This document shows positions 12,479-61,915 of a DNA stretch of 62,686 nt, one piece after another. Source of the stretch: a virus; the IMG/VR virus record IMGVR_UViG_3300015262_000286, positions 1 through 62,686 of that record, one strand, 5' to 3'. The notes below the pieces were generated by a model. That model did not search any database, was not told where the DNA came from, and was given only the letters and a program-made list of their open reading frames with translations. The first letter of the stretch is position 1. Every line of letters begins with the position of its first letter. Position numbers and translations under genes: made by a program.

Positions 12479-12531
12479 ACTTTACCAAAAAGATAAACAT
12501 GCAGCAAGCGAAATTTACCAAAAAGATTAAT
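12479..12531 (-). promoter_or_regulatory. Left early promoter with two CI/Cro operators (OL-like)
   Basis: Two copies of TTTACCAAAAAGAT(A/T)AA lie at 12481-12498 and 12514-12531, 33 bases apart. Three more copies flank the repressor gene at 15745-15811. On the minus strand TTGCTG and TAAAGT (12479-12484) are 17 bases apart, and the first operator covers the spacer and -10 box. A bound repressor would therefore block the left operon. Confidence 0.75.
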
Positions 12532-12605: not shown

Positions 12606-12899
12606 TTAGAAGGGTAGTTCGGGTGGCGGTGGCGGCCGGTAGGTCTGCCACTCGATTTCGTCAGCGTTGATCTGACTGATCAGCGGTCCGATGTCGAACG
12701 TGGAGTAACTGCGCGAGAAGGCGCCGACGCGCGGCGACAGCAGCAAAATAGGCAGGCTAGGGAAGAACCGTTGTGCATGGAGTAGGGCGGCCGGGCCAGT
12801 GGATGGCCAAGTATGTTCTGGCTCGACCTGAACCACGGCCAACTGAATTTTCTTGATCTTGATGATGGCGGCGCTTAGTTGAGATTGCTTTACCGCCAA
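12606..12899 (-). CDS. Hypothetical phage protein, 97 aa (TTG start)
   Basis: A 97-residue protein with a central hydrophobic stretch (RFFPSLPILLLSPRVGAFSR) and a Pro-rich end before the stop. A TTG at 12899 is the only start giving the full frame; a GGAAT-like site lies upstream. It is the last gene before the terminator and left operators, in a position transcribed in a lysogen. The family is familiar as a small phage hypothetical, but no function is known to me. Confidence 0.6.
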   Translation of the reverse strand: MAVKQSQLSAAIIKIKKIQLAVVQVEPEHTWPSTGPAALLHAQRFFPSLPILLLSPRVGAFSRSYSTFDIGPLISQINADEIEWQTYRPPPPPELPF

Positions 12900-12951
12900 G
12901 ATATATTCCGATTAATAAGATTATTAGGATGATTTCAGTGTTTAGGCTGGA

Positions 12952-13800
12952 TTACGCATTCGCCCATAACTCTACTCTTGATGCCAAATCTCCTGGCGAC
13001 GGTTCACAGAACTGCAATATGCCAGAATCCTCAACCTCGCCTAGTAACTCGGCAGTTTTTCGGGAAATCATTGCATCGATCGATGTTCTTGCATCAGGCA
13101 ATACAACAAATAGAGCAGGCTGTGAGTTCCTCTTCGATAATCTGTGGGCGGTTGTCACCTGCAGCATTGACGTATAAATATGCCGCTCCACGGTGGAATA
13201 CGATGCATATCGAGCAGAAACGATATTTGCATAGCTCTTACCGCTATCCATTGCGATAGATAAGGTTTTATTCTCAATAGTAAGCGACCTATGCGGAACA
13301 AAGAGACTCGACCCTACATTGATTGCTGACAGTTCCCTGAGCATAGTTGAATATGCCCAGTCATCGTCCATAGTCGCTTCTTTTGTCTGCGGTTCCTGCC
13401 AAATTGCACCGGACTGCCTTTTGAGAAGACGGGTCAATTCTTTTTCTAAATCATCCGTAGAAAAATAGCCGCACTGCTCAATCCTTACGTGCGGCGTCCC
13501 ACAATCGAAATGACTAAGCGAGCGCGTGAAGGACGACCTTATTGCCAACTCAGAGCCTATGGTTAACCCGCTTACGTCAGTTGAAGTGAGGGCATCACCG
13601 TACAAACTGCTAAGGCGAGAAAAGCTTGGAAGCCACTTTAGATGTGGCGTCTCGTCGTTTTCAATAGTCGCGATAACTCCAACAGCAAATTCCTGCTGAC
13701 TGCCCAAGTCGGGGCGCAGGAAAAGGATGCCCCAATGGCCGCAAATGAGCGGCTCGGGGGCGGGGGTAGCTCGCTTCAATAACTCTGCATAATTTATCAC
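12952..13800 (-). CDS. Partner protein of the HipA-like kinase (possibly DUF3037-like)
   Basis: A 282-residue protein. Its N-terminus (CGHWGILFLRPDLGSQQEFAVG) resembles the opening of DUF3037 proteins, which often stand beside HipA-like kinases; this is a resemblance only. The rest is mixed alpha/beta without a recognised motif. The start is GTG at 13800, chosen because GGGAGG lies just upstream and the codon overlaps the kinase stop (GTGA); an in-frame TTG at 13815 is less likely. AT-rich compared with the phage core. It probably works with the kinase. Confidence 0.6.
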   Translation of the reverse strand: MINYAELLKRATPAPEPLICGHWGILFLRPDLGSQQEFAVGVIATIENDETPHLKWLPSFSRLSSLYGDALTSTDVSGLTIGSELAIRSSFTRSLSHFDCGTPHVRIEQCGYFSTDDLEKELTRLLKRQSGAIWQEPQTKEATMDDDWAYSTMLRELSAINVGSSLFVPHRSLTIENKTLSIAMDSGKSYANIVSARYASYSTVERHIYTSMLQVTTAHRLSKRNSQPALFVVLPDARTSIDAMISRKTAELLGEVEDSGILQFCEPSPGDLASRVELWANA

Positions 13801-14609
13801 ACAAGCCTCCCACAACTTTTTGCGAAATCATGGCTATTTGCGCGGTCAGACATGTAATCAATAATGGTATCTATGTGCTCTTTATCGATTATGCCGGAAA
13901 GCGAATTCTCGATTCCGGGGAGAATTTGACGCCAACTTTCCTGCGCAATTTGATATTCGATAATAGCCTCTGTCTGCCAGTTTGCAACGTGTGATGCGGT
14001 TAAATTTTTTTGCGCTAATAGTGCTAGTTCGTTAATTGGGTTCGGATCGGGCCACATAGAATGCCACGCCAATCCGCCACCGACGCAGCCTTGGTCGATC
14101 GCTAGATAATTTAAGTCATCTTTGTAAAGAAAATTTCCCTCATGCCGGTCATTGTTTCCTGTTACGTAATCGACTCCTGCTAGCAATTTACAGAATTTAC
14201 TTTTATAAAATGCTTCAGTTTGCTTTTGAGAAAAACTTGAAAGTTTCCGAATGAATTTGAACGGCTCAGCTCCTTGTTCAAAAGAAGTTGCCCAGCATGC
14301 GCATATTCCTGTTCCAGCGTCCACGTATTCATCGAGTTTCAGATTTAAGTCAGGCAGGGCGCTTTTGGGAAGCAGCAGGACAGCGCCATGTCTTGGCTGT
14401 GAGACACCTCTTGCCAAATTGGCTTCAAAGCCGATTACCTCATTGGCAATACCGCAAGTATCTTTCCGGTAAAGCTTGATAATCGCATCCTCTGGCTCGG
14501 CAAGACCTGGCCAGGTTACTCTTCCAACGAAGATAGCCTGGGCACCTTTCGTAGCACTGAGTCGAGCCAAAAAACCACTGTATGAATCTACAGTTAGTAT
14601 ATGCATCAT
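13797..14609 (-). CDS. HipA-like kinase
   Basis: A 270-residue protein with the motifs of HipA-like kinases: AIIKLY with the ATP-binding Lys at 45, an acidic helix around 56-62, the catalytic GNNDRHEGNF loop (Asp154, Asn159) and AIDQG (Asp172) in place of DFG. It is much shorter than E. coli HipA (about 440) and matches the compact HipA_2-type family. No HipB-like HTH partner is present; the neighbour is the 282-residue protein overlapping by 4 bases. It lies between repressor and left operators, where lambda keeps rexAB, so expression in lysogens and a role in excluding other phages are plausible. Confidence 0.7.
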   Translation of the reverse strand: MMHILTVDSYSGFLARLSATKGAQAIFVGRVTWPGLAEPEDAIIKLYRKDTCGIANEVIGFEANLARGVSQPRHGAVLLLPKSALPDLNLKLDEYVDAGTGICACWATSFEQGAEPFKFIRKLSSFSQKQTEAFYKSKFCKLLAGVDYVTGNNDRHEGNFLYKDDLNYLAIDQGCVGGGLAWHSMWPDPNPINELALLAQKNLTASHVANWQTEAIIEYQIAQESWRQILPGIENSLSGIIDKEHIDTIIDYMSDRANSHDFAKSCGRLV

Positions 14610-14693
14610 AAGCTCATCAACCTTTACATGGCAATATGTATCTGTTCAACCGCGATTTGGCTTTCGCCGACTGATCGTGATTACTTTGCTATT

Positions 14694-14711
14694 TAGTAAA
14701 TCAGTTTACTA
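14694..14711. promoter_or_regulatory. Perfect palindrome upstream of the kinase pair
   Basis: TAGTAAA-TCAG-TTTACTA overlaps the stop codon of the secreted-protein gene and lies 85 bases upstream of the kinase gene. On the minus strand TTGAAC-17-TAAAGG follows it, giving a possible separate promoter for the kinase pair. The palindrome could be an operator or a small hairpin. Confidence 0.35.
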
Positions 14712-15018
14712 GCCGCACACCCGAAGTCGGCGATGCAATCCCCATCAGCTTACCCTTGCGGTAGAACATGATCTCGCGCGCCGCGCCACCCAGGCACGCA
14801 TCCATATCGGCATAGGCCGTGACCATCTGCAGGCGCTTAGCCTCTGGCTGCTTTTCGATTGCATACGTCCAATGCACAGTCAGATGATCGCCCTCGATGT
14901 GCGACTTAGCGAATTCCCTGAGGCTGCGCTGAACATCCTGGGCGGCCGTCTTGTCGCATTGCGCAGCGCTTGCTTGCTGCGCAGCAAGGAGGGCAACAGC
15001 GAGAATCCATGCTTTCAT
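14701..15018 (-). CDS. Small secreted protein next to the repressor
   Basis: A 105-residue protein with a clear signal peptide (MKAWILAVALLAAQQASA, cleavage before AQCDK) and two Cys residues that could form one disulphide in the periplasm. No family is recognised. The ATG follows the repressor stop codon directly, so it is co-transcribed with the repressor and should be made in the lysogen. That makes it a candidate lysogenic conversion factor. Confidence 0.7.
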   Translation of the reverse strand: MKAWILAVALLAAQQASAAQCDKTAAQDVQRSLREFAKSHIEGDHLTVHWTYAIEKQPEAKRLQMVTAYADMDACLGGAAREIMFYRKGKLMGIASPTSGVRLVN

Positions 15019-15726
15019 TTACAGTCGATCCTTAAAGTTGCGCGGCTCGAAACGCACGACGCGGCCGATGACCTTACAATCTGCAGTCCGGCATGGCTCA
15101 TGGGGGAAGTCTGGATTTTCAGAGGTCAGATACCACTCGCGGCGCTCATATTTGAGGCGTTTTACTACCGACTCTCCTTGGAAATTCAAGGCGAACACAC
15201 CTCCGTTCACGCGGCTTATATCCTTGATGTTCACGACCGCTACATCACCTGGATACATCATTGGCACCATACTGTCGCCCTTGATTTTGATGGCGCGAAG
15301 CTGATCGGGCGAGAGGTCGTTCTCTTCAAGCCACTGGCGCGGCACGTGCAAATGTCCGCCATCCTCAAACAGATGATCCGTTTCAAAGCCTGTGATTCCG
15401 GCTCTTACATGCTCAGGAACCATGCGAATAGCCACCATTGCCGGTGCGAAATCGTCATCGTCTGTCACAGGCTTGGCGCCTGGAGCTTCAATTACTTCAG
15501 CTCGCTCAAGGTCGCGGTGCTGAACATCAAGCCACCCATCCGGTTTGTTGAATGCTTGCTCGATGCGCTTGGCGATTGAATTCCCAATGTTCTTGACTGG
15601 CGTCTTGCCAATTATTTGGCTCACCTGCGAGGGGACCATGTTGAGTGCCCGACCAAACTCCACTTGGCCGCCTGCCAGGTCGGCAAGGTTCCGGGCGTTT
15701 TCTCGTCTGATTTCTTCTCTGGTCAT
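15019..15726 (-). CDS. CI-type prophage repressor with S24 autocleavage domain
   Basis: A 235-residue repressor. The N-terminal third is a helix-turn-helix (GRALNMVPSQVSQIIGKTPV) for operator binding. The C-terminal half is a LexA/CI S24 peptidase: KIKGDSMVPMMYPGD with nucleophile Ser152, and SVVKRLKY with Lys189. An Ala109-Gly110 pair is a plausible self-cleavage site, so induction should follow RecA activation. The ATG at 15726 is chosen because the upstream in-frame extension is made of operator DNA. It is divergent from the Cro gene. Confidence 0.9.
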   Translation of the reverse strand: MTREEIRRENARNLADLAGGQVEFGRALNMVPSQVSQIIGKTPVKNIGNSIAKRIEQAFNKPDGWLDVQHRDLERAEVIEAPGAKPVTDDDDFAPAMVAIRMVPEHVRAGITGFETDHLFEDGGHLHVPRQWLEENDLSPDQLRAIKIKGDSMVPMMYPGDVAVVNIKDISRVNGGVFALNFQGESVVKRLKYERREWYLTSENPDFPHEPCRTADCKVIGRVVRFEPRNFKDRL

Positions 15727-15744: not shown

Positions 15745-15813
15745 TTTAACAAAAAGATAAACAACCAAAAAGATAAACAAAACTACGCAGCAAGTTTATC
15801 TTTATGGTAAAGT
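15745..15813. promoter_or_regulatory. Right operators and divergent PRM/PR promoters (OR-like)
   Basis: Three operator copies lie between the repressor and Cro genes: 15745-15762 and 15761-15778 in one orientation, 15794-15811 in the other. The consensus is TTTACC-5-GATAAA, close to a palindrome. TAAAGT at 15808-15813 is the -10 of PR, the same hexamer as in the left promoter, and puts the transcript start near 15820, the A of the Cro ATG. The repressor promoter reads leftward across the first two copies. Confidence 0.75.
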
Positions 15814-18601: not shown

Positions 18602-19266
18602 ACGTACCGCATTTGAGCTACTTAGCTGCGACTGAGCGCCTCAAGTCCTTTTTTGAACTCGGAACTGAAGATGGTTGCTTGATCAAGATGTTTGGTGAGC
18701 TGGGCTGCAAACGCGCCCCGGCCAGCAAATATCTCAAGAGGTGTACCCGATTCAATAAGAAGCTCCACATCAGCGAGGCATTCGATAATGTTTTGAAGGG
18801 AAACTGTCATTGCATACGAGCCGAGCTCATGCCCTGGAACGGAGATAAGAACTCTTTTTGCTTCAGCAAGTTTGATGCTGGCTATTGCTTTAAAGGCAAA
18901 GATGGACTGGTTGGTTCCGTCGTTAATCGCTTTTTGAAACGCGTCAGAGCACGAGCCAACATGAAATACCGCACGCTCCATGAGTGCGTGAACAGAGGCT
19001 CCTCGTCGAACCAGCGCCCGTTTATCGGTCTCAGTCAACAGCTTGGCGGCATGCCTGTTTTGTCTACTCATTACGAAAACTGCTACGCCCAATGCCGCGA
19101 TGGAACCGATAGCCTGCACCCAGCCAGACCAATCGGACTTGGTGAGTTCGTAGTGATTTCCCAATATGACGATATCGATGATGCCGAAAAACACGAGCAG
19201 GGCAACCGTAAGGTATGGATATTTCATGCGCTTGCCAAAAGTTGTTTGAAAGGAATCATAGCATGA
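18598..19266 (+). other. Open operon-strand frame bridging an antisense gene
   Basis: A 222-codon open frame begins with ATG in an ATGA overlap with the upstream gene and ends in the ATGA that starts the cytosine methyltransferase. It covers the whole antisense gene 18622-19227 in codon-aligned register. The predicted peptide is Cys-rich and unlike a folded protein. Confidence 0.45.
18622..19227 (-). CDS. Two-pass membrane protein, antisense cargo
   Basis: A 201-residue protein with two N-terminal membrane segments (about residues 5-22 and 35-53, the second in SDWSGWVQAIGSIAALGVAV) and a helical cytoplasmic domain of about 145 residues. This layout is common in phage-carried membrane proteins and in some defence effectors, but no family is assigned. 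An extended -10 box (TGCTATGAT at 19255-19263, minus strand) precedes it by 28 bases. It is antisense to the right early operon. Its Leu and Ser codons include no TTA, CTA or TCA, since the opposing frame is open. Confidence 0.7.
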   Translation of the reverse strand: MKYPYLTVALLVFFGIIDIVILGNHYELTKSDWSGWVQAIGSIAALGVAVFVMSRQNRHAAKLLTETDKRALVRRGASVHALMERAVFHVGSCSDAFQKAINDGTNQSIFAFKAIASIKLAEAKRVLISVPGHELGSYAMTVSLQNIIECLADVELLIESGTPLEIFAGRGAFAAQLTKHLDQATIFSSEFKKGLEALSRS

Positions 19267-28329: not shown

Positions 28330-28673
28330 TGGCCCGTGGCTTGCAAGCGCTGGGCCGCCTCAAGGTTGGCGCCATGAACCAGACCGAGGCGGCCTACGCC
28401 AGGACACTGGAGCTGCGCAAGGCTGCCGGCGAGGTGGCTTGGTACAAGTTCGAAGGCCTGAAATTCCGCTTGGCCGACAACACTTTTTACACGCCGGATT
28501 TTGCTGTGCAGCTGGCCGACGGCGCGCTGGAGGCGCACGAAGTGAAGGGCTACTGGCAGGACGACGCGCGCGCGAAAATAAAGATCGCGGCCGACATGTA
28601 CCCGTTGCGCTTCGTCGCCGTGCAGGCGCTGCCGAAGAAACTGGGCGGCGGATGGAAAGTGGAGGAATTCTGA
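28326..28673 (+). CDS. PD-(D/E)xK nuclease-like protein (DUF1064-like)
   Basis: A 115-residue protein with TEAAYARTLE, TPDFAVQL and HEVKGYW, the spaced Glu, PD and ExK residues of a PD-(D/E)xK nuclease core, as in DUF1064 proteins. A Holliday junction or debranching role late in replication would fit the position. The ATG overlaps the previous stop (ATGA). Confidence 0.7.
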   Translation: MMARGLQALGRLKVGAMNQTEAAYARTLELRKAAGEVAWYKFEGLKFRLADNTFYTPDFAVQLADGALEAHEVKGYWQDDARAKIKIAADMYPLRFVAVQALPKKLGGGWKVEEF

Positions 28674-28740
28674 TGGCTGCGAACAAGAAGCCGCGCAAGC
28701 GGCACATTGATTCGCTGGTATCAGAATTTGCAGGGGGCGC
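28673..28740 (+). pseudogene. Truncated start of an early gene
   Basis: An ATG in a TGATG overlap with the nuclease gene begins a basic peptide (AANKKPRKRHIDSLVSEFAG) whose codons look like the operon up to about 28740. The frame then enters the AT-rich antisense region and stops at 28918. It looks like the 5' end of a gene cut off by the cargo insertion. Confidence 0.45.
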
Positions 28741-28752
28741 TATATTTTCTTG

Positions 28753-29076
28753 TCATCGACCAAATAGCGCATCGAGCAAAGTACCGTCAACATTGCTTCC
28801 GCGGTCCGAGGGTAAATACAGAAAATTTCCATCTTCTATCAAGTGTGCCAAGCGCTGCTGGATTAAGCTTGTAGCAAGGCAAAGCGCCTGCAGGGCGTTA
28901 AGCCCGGACCTATCTTGATACCTGCCGTCAACTCCTTCTAGCTCTGCCGCGCAATACCAACTATTCTCTAAAAAGAAAGGAGTGCCCACCCGAGCGGTAA
29001 TAGTCGATTCTGAGCCATCAGGCGCAACTCGCACCAGAGAGTCCTCGACGATAAATTTGGGGTCAGTAGTTTTCAT
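28753..29076 (-). CDS. Antisense cargo protein, DUF6968-like
   Basis: A 107-residue protein with a beta-rich first part and a helix containing GLNALQALCLATSLIQ, a pattern that recalls the DUF6968 family (uncertain). The ATG at 29076 has GGAG five bases upstream; a GTG two codons earlier is also in frame. It lies opposite to the right operon with the RHS-like gene upstream of it. Confidence 0.6.
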   Translation of the reverse strand: MKTTDPKFIVEDSLVRVAPDGSESTITARVGTPFFLENSWYCAAELEGVDGRYQDRSGLNALQALCLATSLIQQRLAHLIEDGNFLYLPSDRGSNVDGTLLDALFGR

Positions 29077-29144
29077 GTTCACTCCATTGTTGTTAAATTT
29101 TTACGAGCGAATTGAGTGGGTAGTTCGAATCGCTCGCTTTGCAT

Positions 29145-29963
29145 TTATCGATAGTAATAATTCCAAGTGTCTAGCCAGCGCCAATCACCTGTGTCACAAG
29201 AGCGCAGGCATTTGGAGTAGTACTCGGTTGCCTTACTCTTGCATAGAGCGTTGCCTCTGGGATTGGTCTCGGTGCTGCAGTACGCCATGAAGTAATTGTC
29301 TGCACCATCGCATAATTGTGCTTTGCATTGCAATGGCGTCATGCTTTTGGGAGCAGTAATTGAAACCTTTGGAAGTTCTGCACCTCCGCTGCCACCACCT
29401 GCACCGACGCCTATGCCCCCACCGCCACCTCCTCCACCGCCACCTTCTTCATCTTCATCTCGATGGCCAGGAACAAACACTGTGCACCCATTGTCATCCG
29501 CACTTTGACAGTCCGAATCTGTGTACGCGATGTCAACAGATTTTTGAAAGGCTACAGAAGAGGGTGAGTCTATCGTTCGAGTGGCGCGTGCACTCTTTGC
29601 ATCCGTCAAAACTCGAACCCGCTTTTTGTCTGTGGTGAGTTCCTCCAAACCCGCTTGACGGCTGTAGACTAAAACTACAGTTTTACCATTAGAAAATTCA
29701 ATGACCTTCAAGCGACCTGAATCGTCATATTTGTAATTTCCTATCACCCCAAATGAATCAGTTTGGGAACGTAAGACGTTATTTTCATCATAAGTATAGT
29801 GAGTTCTACCCTGACCAGTTTGCTTCACTATCACTCGATCCGCATCCAAATGCCACACAGCACGCTTATCAACGACCGAGCTCAGTTCGGTGGCCTCACT
29901 AGCGCAAGGCTTAAATACACTGAATAATAGTAAGAAAAGAGCTGCTACATTTCTTTGAATCAT
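29145..29963 (-). CDS. Small secreted RHS-like protein
   Basis: A 272-residue protein with a signal peptide (MIQRNVAALFLLLFSVFKPC and following SEA), then two or three YD/RHS-type repeats (THYTYDENNVLRSQTD, GNYKYDDSGRLKVIEFSNG), a poly-Gly linker near residue 175-190 and a Cys-rich end with six to eight Cys. Full RHS proteins exceed 1000 residues, so this is a miniature form or a fragment that kept a signal peptide. It is AT-rich cargo and may be a secreted effector or adhesin. Confidence 0.65.
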   Translation of the reverse strand: MIQRNVAALFLLLFSVFKPCASEATELSSVVDKRAVWHLDADRVIVKQTGQGRTHYTYDENNVLRSQTDSFGVIGNYKYDDSGRLKVIEFSNGKTVVLVYSRQAGLEELTTDKKRVRVLTDAKSARATRTIDSPSSVAFQKSVDIAYTDSDCQSADDNGCTVFVPGHRDEDEEGGGGGGGGGGIGVGAGGGSGGAELPKVSITAPKSMTPLQCKAQLCDGADNYFMAYCSTETNPRGNALCKSKATEYYSKCLRSCDTGDWRWLDTWNYYYR

Positions 29964-45218: not shown

Positions 45219-45562
45219 CCCAGGCCCTGCTGCTGTACGCCGATCACTTGTTTGATCGTGCGGCAGCGGCAGGCGATGGCAATGCCAAGGGCGACCACCT
45301 GGATACGGCCCGGCAAAACCCGCTTTACCGGGCGCCCGACGCCCCAGCGGCGCCTCAAATGCCGCCTGAGCTGGCCTACATCTGGACCTGGTTTACCCAG
45401 ATGAACCAGAAGCGCCAGTGCGGTATGGCCGTGAACGCGCTGACCAGTGCCGAGATATTAGCCTGGCAGGCGCGCCACGGCGTGCGCTTCGATCCGTTCG
45501 AAGAGGGCGTGATTGATCGCCTTGACGTGCTCTTCATGCATCATCAAAACAACGGGACGTAA
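45203..45562 (+). CDS. Tail assembly chaperone extension (T-like), made by -1 frameshift
   Basis: The -1 frame is open from the TTTTTTG heptamer (45203-45209) for 119 codons to TAA at 45562. Its own first start codon (TTG at 45248) has no ribosome site. The fused G-T product would be about 272 residues. The T part ends DRLDVLFMHHQNNGT. Gene order and slippery sequence match lambda-type G-T. Confidence 0.75.
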   Translation, partial: FFEGLTQALLLYADHLFDRAAAAGDGNAKGDHLDTARQNPLYRAPDAPAAPQMPPELAYIWTWFTQMNQKRQCGMAVNALTSAEILAWQARHGVRFDPFEEGVIDRLDVLFMHHQNNGT

Positions 45563-45563
45563 A

Positions 45564-45591
45564 AAGGCCTCGCGAACGAGGCCTTGTTTTT
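45564..45591. terminator. Bidirectional terminator between chaperone and toxin genes
   Basis: AAGGCCTCG-CGAA-CGAGGCCTT, with T tracts on both strands. It can end the YoeB transcript and the tail transcript. Confidence 0.8.
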
Positions 45592-45847
45592 AGTAATGAT
45601 AACGACAAGAAATTATTTCTATCTCATCGTCTTGCACGGCGTAGACCAATCTATTGACCTCATCGATGCGGCGCGACCAAAACCCCGATAAATTCCCCTT
45701 AAGTGGTTCGGGCTTTCCGATTCCCTCGAATGGGGAGCGTTGTGCGTCCTTGATCAGCGCGTTGATCCTCTTTAAGGTTTTTTTGTCTTGCCCCTGCCAG
45801 TAGACGTAGTCATCAAAGCACTCGTCCGTAAATTTCACGTTCTTCAT
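45590..45847 (-). CDS. yoeB: YoeB-family toxin
   Basis: An 85-residue RelE-superfamily ribosome-dependent mRNA endonuclease, close in layout to E. coli YoeB (84 residues): FDDYVYWQGQDKKTLKRIN, KPEPLKGNLSGFWSRRID, RLVYAV and the final SCRYHY. The catalytic Glu (in KPEPLK), Arg (in SRRI) and terminal His-Tyr are all present, so it should be active. The gene overlaps the antitoxin by 35 bases. Confidence 0.9.
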   Translation of the reverse strand: MKNVKFTDECFDDYVYWQGQDKKTLKRINALIKDAQRSPFEGIGKPEPLKGNLSGFWSRRIDEVNRLVYAVQDDEIEIISCRYHY

Positions 45848-46121
45848 CGGGAACTTCCTCAGCTTCGGATACTTCGATTAACTCCCGATGCCGCGTTTTG
45901 CCTGCGCGTGATTGCTCGATCGATCTTGCTAAGTGCGCCGCGTTAGCAGGTGAACTGAGCAGATGAACCGTTTCAATCAAGCTATTGTATTGATCAAATG
46001 ACATAACAACAGCATTAGGCGCATCACGGCGCGAAATCACGGTTACATCAGCATCTTCAACAACTTGGTCAATGACTGACCGTAGGCTATTTCGGGCGTC
46101 GGAAAAATTGATGATTCTCAT
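45813..46121 (-). CDS. yefM: YefM/Phd-family antitoxin
   Basis: A 102-residue antitoxin. The N-terminal half is a Phd/YefM DNA-binding fold (FSDARNSLRSVIDQVVEDAD, AVVMSFDQYNSL, HLLSSPANAAHL), and the acidic C-terminus should wrap YoeB. It is longer than E. coli YefM (83). GGAG precedes the ATG. It is antisense to the tail operon, and the repeats upstream are probably its operators. Confidence 0.88.
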   Translation of the reverse strand: MRIINFSDARNSLRSVIDQVVEDADVTVISRRDAPNAVVMSFDQYNSLIETVHLLSSPANAAHLARSIEQSRAGKTRHRELIEVSEAEEVPDEEREIYGRVL

Positions 46122-59775: not shown

Positions 59776-60056
59776 AAACACGAAAAACTTTCGATAAATC
59801 GAAATTTCGTAAGTTGGCACTTTTATGCGTCATGCTGCTCGCCGGCTGCGCGAGCGTTCCGCCGGCGACAGTTCGCGTTGAGGTGCCGGTGATGGCGCCG
59901 TGTGCGGGCGAGGTGCCGCAGCGCCCAGTCTACGAATTCGACAGGCTGCCGGCCACAGCAACGGATGGCGAAATCGTCCTGGCGCTGGCGCGGGACTGGC
60001 CGCGCGGCCGGAAATACGAGGGCGAGATGGAGGCGGTTATTGCCGGATGTCGGTAG
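59772..60056 (+). CDS. Outer-membrane spanin-like lipoprotein (Rz1-like)
   Basis: A 94-residue protein with a signal sequence ending in the lipobox LAGC (Cys26) and a Pro-rich mature part. It follows Rz by an ATGA overlap instead of being nested in it. The pair should fuse inner and outer membranes at lysis. Confidence 0.72.
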   Translation: MKTRKTFDKSKFRKLALLCVMLLAGCASVPPATVRVEVPVMAPCAGEVPQRPVYEFDRLPATATDGEIVLALARDWPRGRKYEGEMEAVIAGCR

Positions 60057-60126
60057 ATTCAGCTTCTCTTGATATAAAAGGCGCAGTATGAAAATTGATT
60101 AAAAATATTATAGAATTAACTGGGTA

Positions 60127-61035
60127 TTATAATTTAAATGGTCCTGTCGGTGAGTATAGCAAGTAATCAGTTATGTCAAACGGCTTGGGATATCCTAAGT
60201 CCTTCTCGGCGGCAAGTAGTTTTTCCTTTTTCAATATTATTGTGCCGTGCGGAGCTACATGGTTCAACTCGAATCCCAAAATGTCGTGTAAAAAAATTGT
60301 TAAGTTTGATATCTCCATAATGACTTCAGGAAAATCTATTTTTGCAAAATCTGGATATATCGCATTTGCTATTTTTTCATCTTCTGATAGATCTGATAAA
60401 TATTCTCTATTTGCTGAAATGCCAATATTTTCAAGAAAATAATCATTAAATTTCATCACTTTTTTTGCCGCATCGGTTCTTTCGGCTATATTTTCTGACT
60501 TTAAGCTTTCAGATATATTAAATAAAGTCAGGACGTGACCTTTTATATTTTCCGTGAACTTGGAGGATGTGGTGAAGTCTCCAGAAAGAGATTTTGGATA
60601 GATTGAACTATAAAGTTTTCTTTTTGATTTTATTGAAAACTCAACATTTGCTTGATTTTCGCAAAATTTCTCAAATTCCTCGATATGTTTATAATAATTT
60701 GAGAAATTATTCTGTATTTTTGTTAGATCTATTTGTTTTGTTGTGAGGCTAATTTGTTCTGATGTTCGTTCAATCTGTCGTTTTGTTTGCTCCGATCGAT
60801 GATTCGCGGCGCATAAGCCAACCAACGTAAATCCGATGGCTAAAATTGCTGCAGGAACCTTATAGAATTCAGCAAATTTATTGAATCCCTTCCCACTAAA
60901 ATCAATTGGATATTCAGTCAAATTAAAAGCAATAATTACTGATATTCCGATTGCAATGAGAGCTGATAGAGCGGCACACCAACGGACGACAGGTAGGGAA
61001 AACAAACTTTTTTCAGGCGAGAAATCTATGTCCAT
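60127..61035 (-). CDS. AT-rich membrane cargo protein with coiled coil
   Basis: A 302-residue protein with two membrane segments (about 18-38 and 60-80), then a coiled coil (QTKRQIERTSEQISLTTKQI) and a soluble helical domain starting NNFSNYYKHIEEFEKFC. The layout recalls putative phage abortive-infection membrane proteins, without firm family assignment. It is strongly AT-rich, on the strand opposite to lysis genes, and next to the DUF2971 gene. Probably expressed in the lysogen. Confidence 0.65.
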   Translation of the reverse strand: MDIDFSPEKSLFSLPVVRWCAALSALIAIGISVIIAFNLTEYPIDFSGKGFNKFAEFYKVPAAILAIGFTLVGLCAANHRSEQTKRQIERTSEQISLTTKQIDLTKIQNNFSNYYKHIEEFEKFCENQANVEFSIKSKRKLYSSIYPKSLSGDFTTSSKFTENIKGHVLTLFNISESLKSENIAERTDAAKKVMKFNDYFLENIGISANREYLSDLSEDEKIANAIYPDFAKIDFPEVIMEISNLTIFLHDILGFELNHVAPHGTIILKKEKLLAAEKDLGYPKPFDITDYLLYSPTGPFKL

Positions 61036-61090
61036 GAGAATAATTTTGTGTAGTTGATAATGAAGGAGGCGTCAATTTGTCGTAAATTTT

Positions 61091-61915
61091 TTAATAAACT
61101 GCCAATAGCTCCCTTTCAACCTGATACTTGATTTTAGAGGGTTTCGCCCTATATAAAGGGGTGCCGTTGCCCAATTTGTTCATTGTATTCCTTACGAATT
61201 TTTCATCCTCAGTGCTTGTTCTCATTCCAATTGTTACGCTTTCAATTGCATTGTGATCGAATTTGTAAAATCCAGGGCCATTGCAATCCACCATGAGTCT
61301 TTGAAACTCTTTGTCTGTATAGTATGTTGTGTCTTTTTCATATTGGCTTGCTTTTCTTTTTAAAATTCTCCATTCATCCTCATATTCCCAACATTTTGAT
61401 TTTGTTAGAAAGGTTTTGTCAATCATCGACTCTGCGCTATCTTGTGGGCGAATAATACTGGGTAATTCTTCCTGGTATATTACTTTAAATGCGATTCTGA
61501 AAAGATCTACATTACTTTTGAGTGAGACGCAAATTCCTTTATGGTGTTTTGCATAGTGCGCCCACAGAAGTAGATTATCCCAAGTTGTTGCAAGTGAGAG
61601 AATGCCAACGCTGTCTAGCAATTTTCTGATCCCGTCATACTCGTCTGAATGTGAATTTTTTTCAATTCTGGCAATGCGCTTCGCTTCAAGAATCCTCGCG
61701 CCAGGCTTCAGTGAACTGCTGGTCTTAATCCTCTTTTGAAGATACTTTCTGCCCTCCTTAGTATTAAAATCCACTTTCAACCCCGGACGCGAGTCAAAGG
61801 GATCATTAAAAGAGTCCCTTGCGGAAAACATGAGAGAGTCACCAGACAAAAAGTCGGGGAGCCAAGGCTCGATGGGGGTGTACTTATAGAACAGTGGAGG
61901 TGCTATATCTTTCAT
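61091..61915 (-). CDS. DUF2971 family cargo protein
   Basis: A 274-residue protein of the DUF2971 family: LFYKYTPIEPWLPDFLSGDS, FNDPFDSRP, LLLWAHYAKHHKGICVSLKS and WEYEDEWRILK are family landmarks. Function is unknown, though members are frequent in mobile elements. The start at 61915 gives the family N-terminus; an in-frame start at 61960 adds 15 residues. AT-rich like the gene downstream. Confidence 0.78.
   Translation of the reverse strand: MKDIAPPLFYKYTPIEPWLPDFLSGDSLMFSARDSFNDPFDSRPGLKVDFNTKEGRKYLQKRIKTSSSLKPGARILEAKRIARIEKNSHSDEYDGIRKLLDSVGILSLATTWDNLLLWAHYAKHHKGICVSLKSNVDLFRIAFKVIYQEELPSIIRPQDSAESMIDKTFLTKSKCWEYEDEWRILKRKASQYEKDTTYYTDKEFQRLMVDCNGPGFYKFDHNAIESVTIGMRTSTEDEKFVRNTMNKLGNGTPLYRAKPSKIKYQVERELLAVY

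Follow-up and report, generated by a model that had tools for sequence, protein, structure and literature searches.

Organization of the immunity region

The window, i.e., the whole stretch of DNA analyzed here, consists of 62,686 nt of temperate phage DNA (IMG/VR record IMGVR_UViG_3300015262_000286, positions 1 to 62,686). Its immunity region encodes, on one strand, a CI-type repressor, a kinase and a partner protein, with the partner start overlapping the kinase stop by GTGA (Table 1). The pair is located between cI and the left operators, and a terminator ends the operon, in agreement with the rexAB-like position and the gene overlap that had been described from the sequence alone. The pair is not directly adjacent to cI because the gene for a 105-aa protein intervenes.

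Table 1. Genes and other features of the immunity region of the window
Feature	Position	Strand	Description
Kinase gene	13797-14609	minus	ATG start, 270 aa; HipA_2-like/protein-kinase-like; predicted toxin-effector
Partner gene	12952-13800	minus	GTG start, 282 aa; putatively DUF3037-type; predicted antitoxin/sensor
97-aa ORF	12606-12899	minus	TTG start; conserved backbone
105-aa gene	14701-15018	minus	signal-peptide-like N-terminus; conserved backbone; separates cI from the cassette
CI-type repressor cI	15019-15726	minus	S24 domain; ATG at 15726
Left operators, two	12481-12494 and 12514-12527		TTTACCAAAAAGAT, exact at both
Right operators	15745, about 15761, 15798 (span 15745-15811)		sites 15745 and 15798 differ from TTTACCAAAAAGAT by one mismatch
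Terminator-like hairpin	12593-12578	minus	GCCCC-TTTACC-GGGGC followed by T7; closes the cI operon
Palindrome TAGTAAACTGATTTACTA	14694-14711		perfect 7-4-7, in the gap ahead of the kinase; candidate operator
Exchangeable cassette	12882-14707		without DNA homology to L076/L072; both flanks 78-87% identical to L076

The repressor matches Peptidase_S24 (E 3.6e-20) and phrog_4 (E 8.9e-35); a longer, TTG-initiated version of its ORF would extend through the operators. For the operator 14-mer, 0.17 matches are expected by chance, and six were reached in none of 100 shuffles; the right side also contains a 15-nt repeat at 15750/15766. The palindrome ahead of the kinase was not found at any other locus compared. 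Promoter-like sites in front of the kinase gene do not exceed the chance expectation, and no independent promoter is evident there. The phage repressor is the only HTH protein recognized in the operon, and the partner matches no HTH family.

The two genes of the pair are AT-rich, with GC3 of 0.40 for the kinase and 0.49 for the partner, compared with 0.70-0.84 for most of the backbone genes measured. The idea that AT-rich codons mark acquired cargo here is thus supported for these two genes but not for the 97-aa ORF (GC3 0.68); the values for the 105-aa gene and cI are 0.66 and 0.58, respectively. The AT-richness of the pair is not unique, given that about 3% of equal-length windows are as low or lower.

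Several other regions of this GC-rich genome deviate in composition. An AT-rich minus-strand gene at 18622-19227 (GC3 0.51) is oriented opposite to the surrounding right-arm genes. Its product has 201 aa, includes a hydrophobic stretch at the N-terminus, and has a 56% relative in phage L072; this is a second candidate cargo gene. The region 59800-61600 is strongly AT-rich, with GC down to 0.32, contains two minus-strand ORFs of 302 and 289 aa, and is likely to represent further cargo. Two more AT-rich islands, with GC of about 0.40-0.50, are found at 28600-29900 and 45400-46100.

Relatives of the pair and the predicted family link

The kinase and the partner match no naming family in Pfam, NCBIfam or PADLOC (HipA_2, DUF3037 and PDC-M66 are all unmatched), and the PHROG families that capture the window proteins (phrog_11186, E 1.9e-9; phrog_14695, E 8.8e-7) are of unknown function. 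Patterns derived from the window kinase gave no match in IMG/VR and only one 21-residue match in genome contigs. As the window proteins by themselves led to no named family, bridging relatives were used.

The search for the same pair elsewhere, as the sequence-only reading had suggested, was productive. On two Cupriavidus plasmids and in the IMG/VR phage L008, close relatives, at 46-50% identity, are likewise encoded next to each other as a pair. Many IMG/VR contigs contain more distant pairs, as do small enterobacterial plasmids, Pseudomonas phage vB_PaeS-D14P, and Moraxella phages Mcat18 and Mcat22. Among 50 proteins of the related groups that were scanned, 17 kinases match HipA_2 (best E-value 7.4e-10) and 5 partners match DUF3037 (best 7.4e-5), and bridging members match the PADLOC models PDC-M66A/B (P0010, 20.6 bits; P0017, 28.3 bits); the matches of the relatives to DUF3037 and PDC-M66B are weak. 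HMMs of the phage pairs from which the window clade was left out match the window kinase from end to end (E 3.5e-17, Z=10000) as well as the window partner (E 1.8e-17). The window, L001 and L008 form a group in the tree that is supported at 100/100 and subtended by a branch of length 3.44. The kinase and partner distances are strongly correlated (Mantel r 0.93; none of 2000 permutations as high), and therefore the two genes travel together. Judging from these sequence comparisons, the window pair is a divergent member of the HipA_2 kinase plus DUF3037-type kind (HipAD, DS-6, PDC-M66) that is linked to it via intermediates.

On the enterobacterial plasmids L004, L005 and L006 (3.5-6.4 kb), the distant pair makes up a large share of the coding content, and L005 additionally carries CTX-M-64. 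L011 (Gordonia) has an immunity cassette with two genes resembling the kinase and the partner, but the HMM does not match its partner, and L011 was kept as a lead only.

Residues and folds of the two proteins

The catalytic residues to which the sequence-only reading had pointed (Lys45, Asp154, Asn159 and Asp172) are, together with E57, D147 and R155, invariant among 33 aligned kinases. The AlphaFold model of the kinase is confident (pLDDT 88.8, pTM 0.88), and its fold matches in the PDB are protein-kinase-like: EGFR-type kinases head the E-value ranking of the best 50 matches, of which PI4K-IIalpha reaches the highest TM score, 0.54. HipA is absent from these 50 matches as well as from the PDB sequence profile search, so the label "HipA-like" rests on the link to the HipA_2 family.

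The partner model (pLDDT 87.6, pTM 0.55) consists of two domains whose relative position is uncertain. The N-terminal domain appears to be DUF3037-like. The C-terminal domain is weakly XPF/ERCC1-like: the sole notable fold match is a weak one, to the XPF/Mus81 homologue Hef (E 0.013), with ERCC1/MUS81-EME1-type domains next. The ERKxxxD nuclease motif is not present in the partner by inspection, and our guess is, for this reason, that the partner has a DNA-binding, non-catalytic role.

Recurrent linkage to phage repressors

A phage repressor is encoded upstream of the pair, on the same strand, in at least 21 of the 27 viral clusters that hold both genes, where clusters were delineated at 70% kinase identity and loci were found by kinase and partner motifs rather than by position. 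The lower bound comprises the PHROGs-positive loci (20 of 20 proteins tested, 19 of which are inside the 27 clusters), the window, and D14P, with its annotated cI. The repressor gene mostly lies directly upstream of the pair and otherwise is a few small genes away. The exceptions are L036, with tail and lysis genes, L043 and L056; L039 and L041 are ambiguous. Given that the clusters are not phylogenetically independent, this count denotes a recurrent home of the pair, not many separate insertions. In 14 of the 21 upstream repressors, a match to the S24/CI-like C-terminal domain is lacking.

The repressors of L023, L028, L029, L048, L051, L010, L037 and others are proteins of 139-192 aa with an HTH match only, and their genes often overlap the kinase start. 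Small signal-peptide-like genes recur between cI and the pair (minus strand 14701-15018 in the window, 4789-5606 in L072, and 6803-7153 in L008); these are candidates for envelope-level exclusion genes.

Exchange of whole pairs in one slot

Two phages, L076 and L072, are closely related to that of the window. L076 shares its operators with the window, and the cI proteins are 83% identical; at the DNA level, identity is 87% in the 105-aa gene and 78% in the region of the 97-aa ORF. By contrast, positions 12882-14707 of the window have no DNA match in L076. In the same slot, with the genes ordered alike, L076 encodes a kinase with 26% local identity to that of the window (E 6.6e-6) and a partner with 41% identity over 56 residues (E 4e-11). 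The L072 pair is nearly the same as the L076 pair (98-99% aa identity), whereas the immunity of L072 differs, with another repressor N-terminus, i.e., DNA-binding domain, and other operators. Since L076 shares the immunity of the window with a different pair, and L072 shares the pair of L076 with a different immunity, pairs have been exchanged in one slot. The slot is an exchangeable cassette in which whole pairs are swapped independently of immunity specificity.

The sequence-only reading had counted the 97-residue protein as part of the system. This third component is ruled out: the ORF is 80-90% identical at the protein level in L076 and L072, is not AT-rich, and belongs to the conserved backbone. 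The 105-aa gene is likewise kept as backbone in the relatives, with a variable N-terminus. A role of the repressor as the dedicated antitoxin of the kinase is disfavored because the repressor DNA-binding domain and the pair shuffle independently.

Proposed function and alternatives

Two lines of published evidence bear on the function of the pair. The Retron-Sda1 operon requires its HipA kinase for defense but not its retron parts, and removal of the DUF3037 gene causes toxicity (PMC12548924); in DS-6/HipAD, identified with DefensePredictor, mutation of a catalytic residue abolishes defense, and the partner has been modelled to bind the kinase and DNA (PMC13092281). Furthermore, it is established that prophages carry exclusion genes downstream of cI (PMC8585504, PMC12894663). 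Because tested relatives defend and such genes are known from this location, the best reading, to which we assign a probability of about 0.74, is that of a toxin-antitoxin defense cassette of the HipAD type, borne by the phage and transcribed in the lysogen together with cI. The exclusion role that had been considered plausible thus gains from homology to the tested systems and from the recurrence and exchange of the pair in the slot, and is proposed by analogy.

Under this scenario, cI, the 105-aa protein, the kinase, the partner and the 97-aa ORF would be transcribed in the lysogen from the cI promoter to the terminator, as gene order and strand suggest. By analogy with the relatives, the partner would bind and silence the kinase, from whose message it would be translated by way of the gene overlap. 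Infection by another phage would disturb the complex, and the freed kinase would phosphorylate a cellular target, probably in translation as in the case of HipA; the resulting growth arrest would abort the infection.

An addiction toxin-antitoxin module that stabilizes the prophage, with phage defense being incidental, is an unlikely alternative that draws on the presence of the same two-gene unit on the 3.5-6.4 kb enterobacterial plasmids and on the Cupriavidus plasmids. The pair of the window, however, belongs to the cI operon and occupies a slot from which exclusion genes are known (PMC8585504); distant versions of the pair are exchanged in this one slot, and relatives have been shown to defend.

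The proximity to the repressor can also be read differently, with the kinase acting on the repressor or on host factors and tuning induction rather than excluding phages. In many relatives, the kinase gene starts within the repressor cistron or immediately next to it, and the frequent lack of an S24/CI-like match among the upstream repressors would fit such a function as well. Nevertheless, we give little credence to lysogeny control: a common cI and common operators go with very different pairs in the window and L076, a shared pair goes with different operators and repressor DNA-binding domains in L072 and L076, and the unit is also present on plasmids. Given the physical coupling, in many phages, of the pair to a repressor that lacks a match to the self-cleavage domain, it is conceivable, albeit improbable, that the pair also senses infection or damage for the prophage and feeds back on the repressor, combining exclusion and induction in one switch. 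If so, the window phage, whose repressor keeps the S24 domain, would represent the version with a freely swappable pair.

HipA proper causes multidrug tolerance, and the kinase could, along the same lines, be a phosphotransferase that alters host physiology for other ends, such as stress tolerance or persistence. Such lysogenic conversion appears very doubtful because tested relatives provide phage defense, and both the location and the cassette exchange are typical of exclusion genes. That the pair is decayed or neutral cargo is hardly credible, with both frames intact, the overlap kept, the catalytic residues invariant, and the kinase and partner distances co-varying.

The proposed defense cassette in the context of known systems

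The kind of pair described here is already known, and so is its presence in prophages: according to PMC13092281, HipAD was first reported in E. coli prophages by Brenes and Laub 2025 (pmid 40409266). As far as the tools used can show, what appears to be new is that the clade escapes detection by the model libraries used here, that the pair is so strongly linked to repressors, and that alleles have been cleanly swapped between homoimmune phages. If the proposed exclusion function is correct, HipAD-type defense extends to a clade unseen by these libraries. Many temperate phages seem to use the slot between the repressor and the left operators as a standard home for the pair. Where homoimmune relatives carry different pairs, they amount to a natural allele swap with immunity held constant, which allows a direct test of the exclusion range of each pair and of the partner as antitoxin.

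With lambda RexAB, BstA of Salmonella BTP1 and RexABpp of P. putida, the pair has in common a slot downstream of cI that holds exclusion genes expressed in the lysogen (PMC8585504, PMC12894663), whereas the proteins and mechanisms of those systems are unrelated to it; there is no family match to RexA or RexB among the window proteins, and only the position is shared with lambda. HipBA and HipBST resemble the pair in that a HipA-like kinase is, or in the window would be, controlled by one or more operon partners, but the window kinase is much smaller and the pair lacks a HipB-like DNA-binding antitoxin. The previous statement that there is no such antitoxin holds in this narrow sense; the system does not appear to be antitoxin-free, since the partner is probably of the DUF3037 type, the deletion of which is toxic in a tested relative. 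The HipA/DUF3037 module of Retron-Sda1 and PDC-M66 appear to be the same pair, and the bridging relatives match the PDC-M66 models, of which the window proteins themselves fall short; no retron components were noted near the pair. HipAD/DS-6 is likewise a two-gene system, although the window clade is too diverged for Pfam, NCBIfam and PADLOC. DS-6B is described as DUF3037 plus DUF1829, and no match to DUF1829 was obtained in any member scanned, the C-terminal domain of the window partner being weakly Hef/ERCC1-like instead. The likeness to HipAD/DS-6 would lie in the combination of a HipA_2-type kinase with a DUF3037-type partner, both predicted for the window through its relatives.
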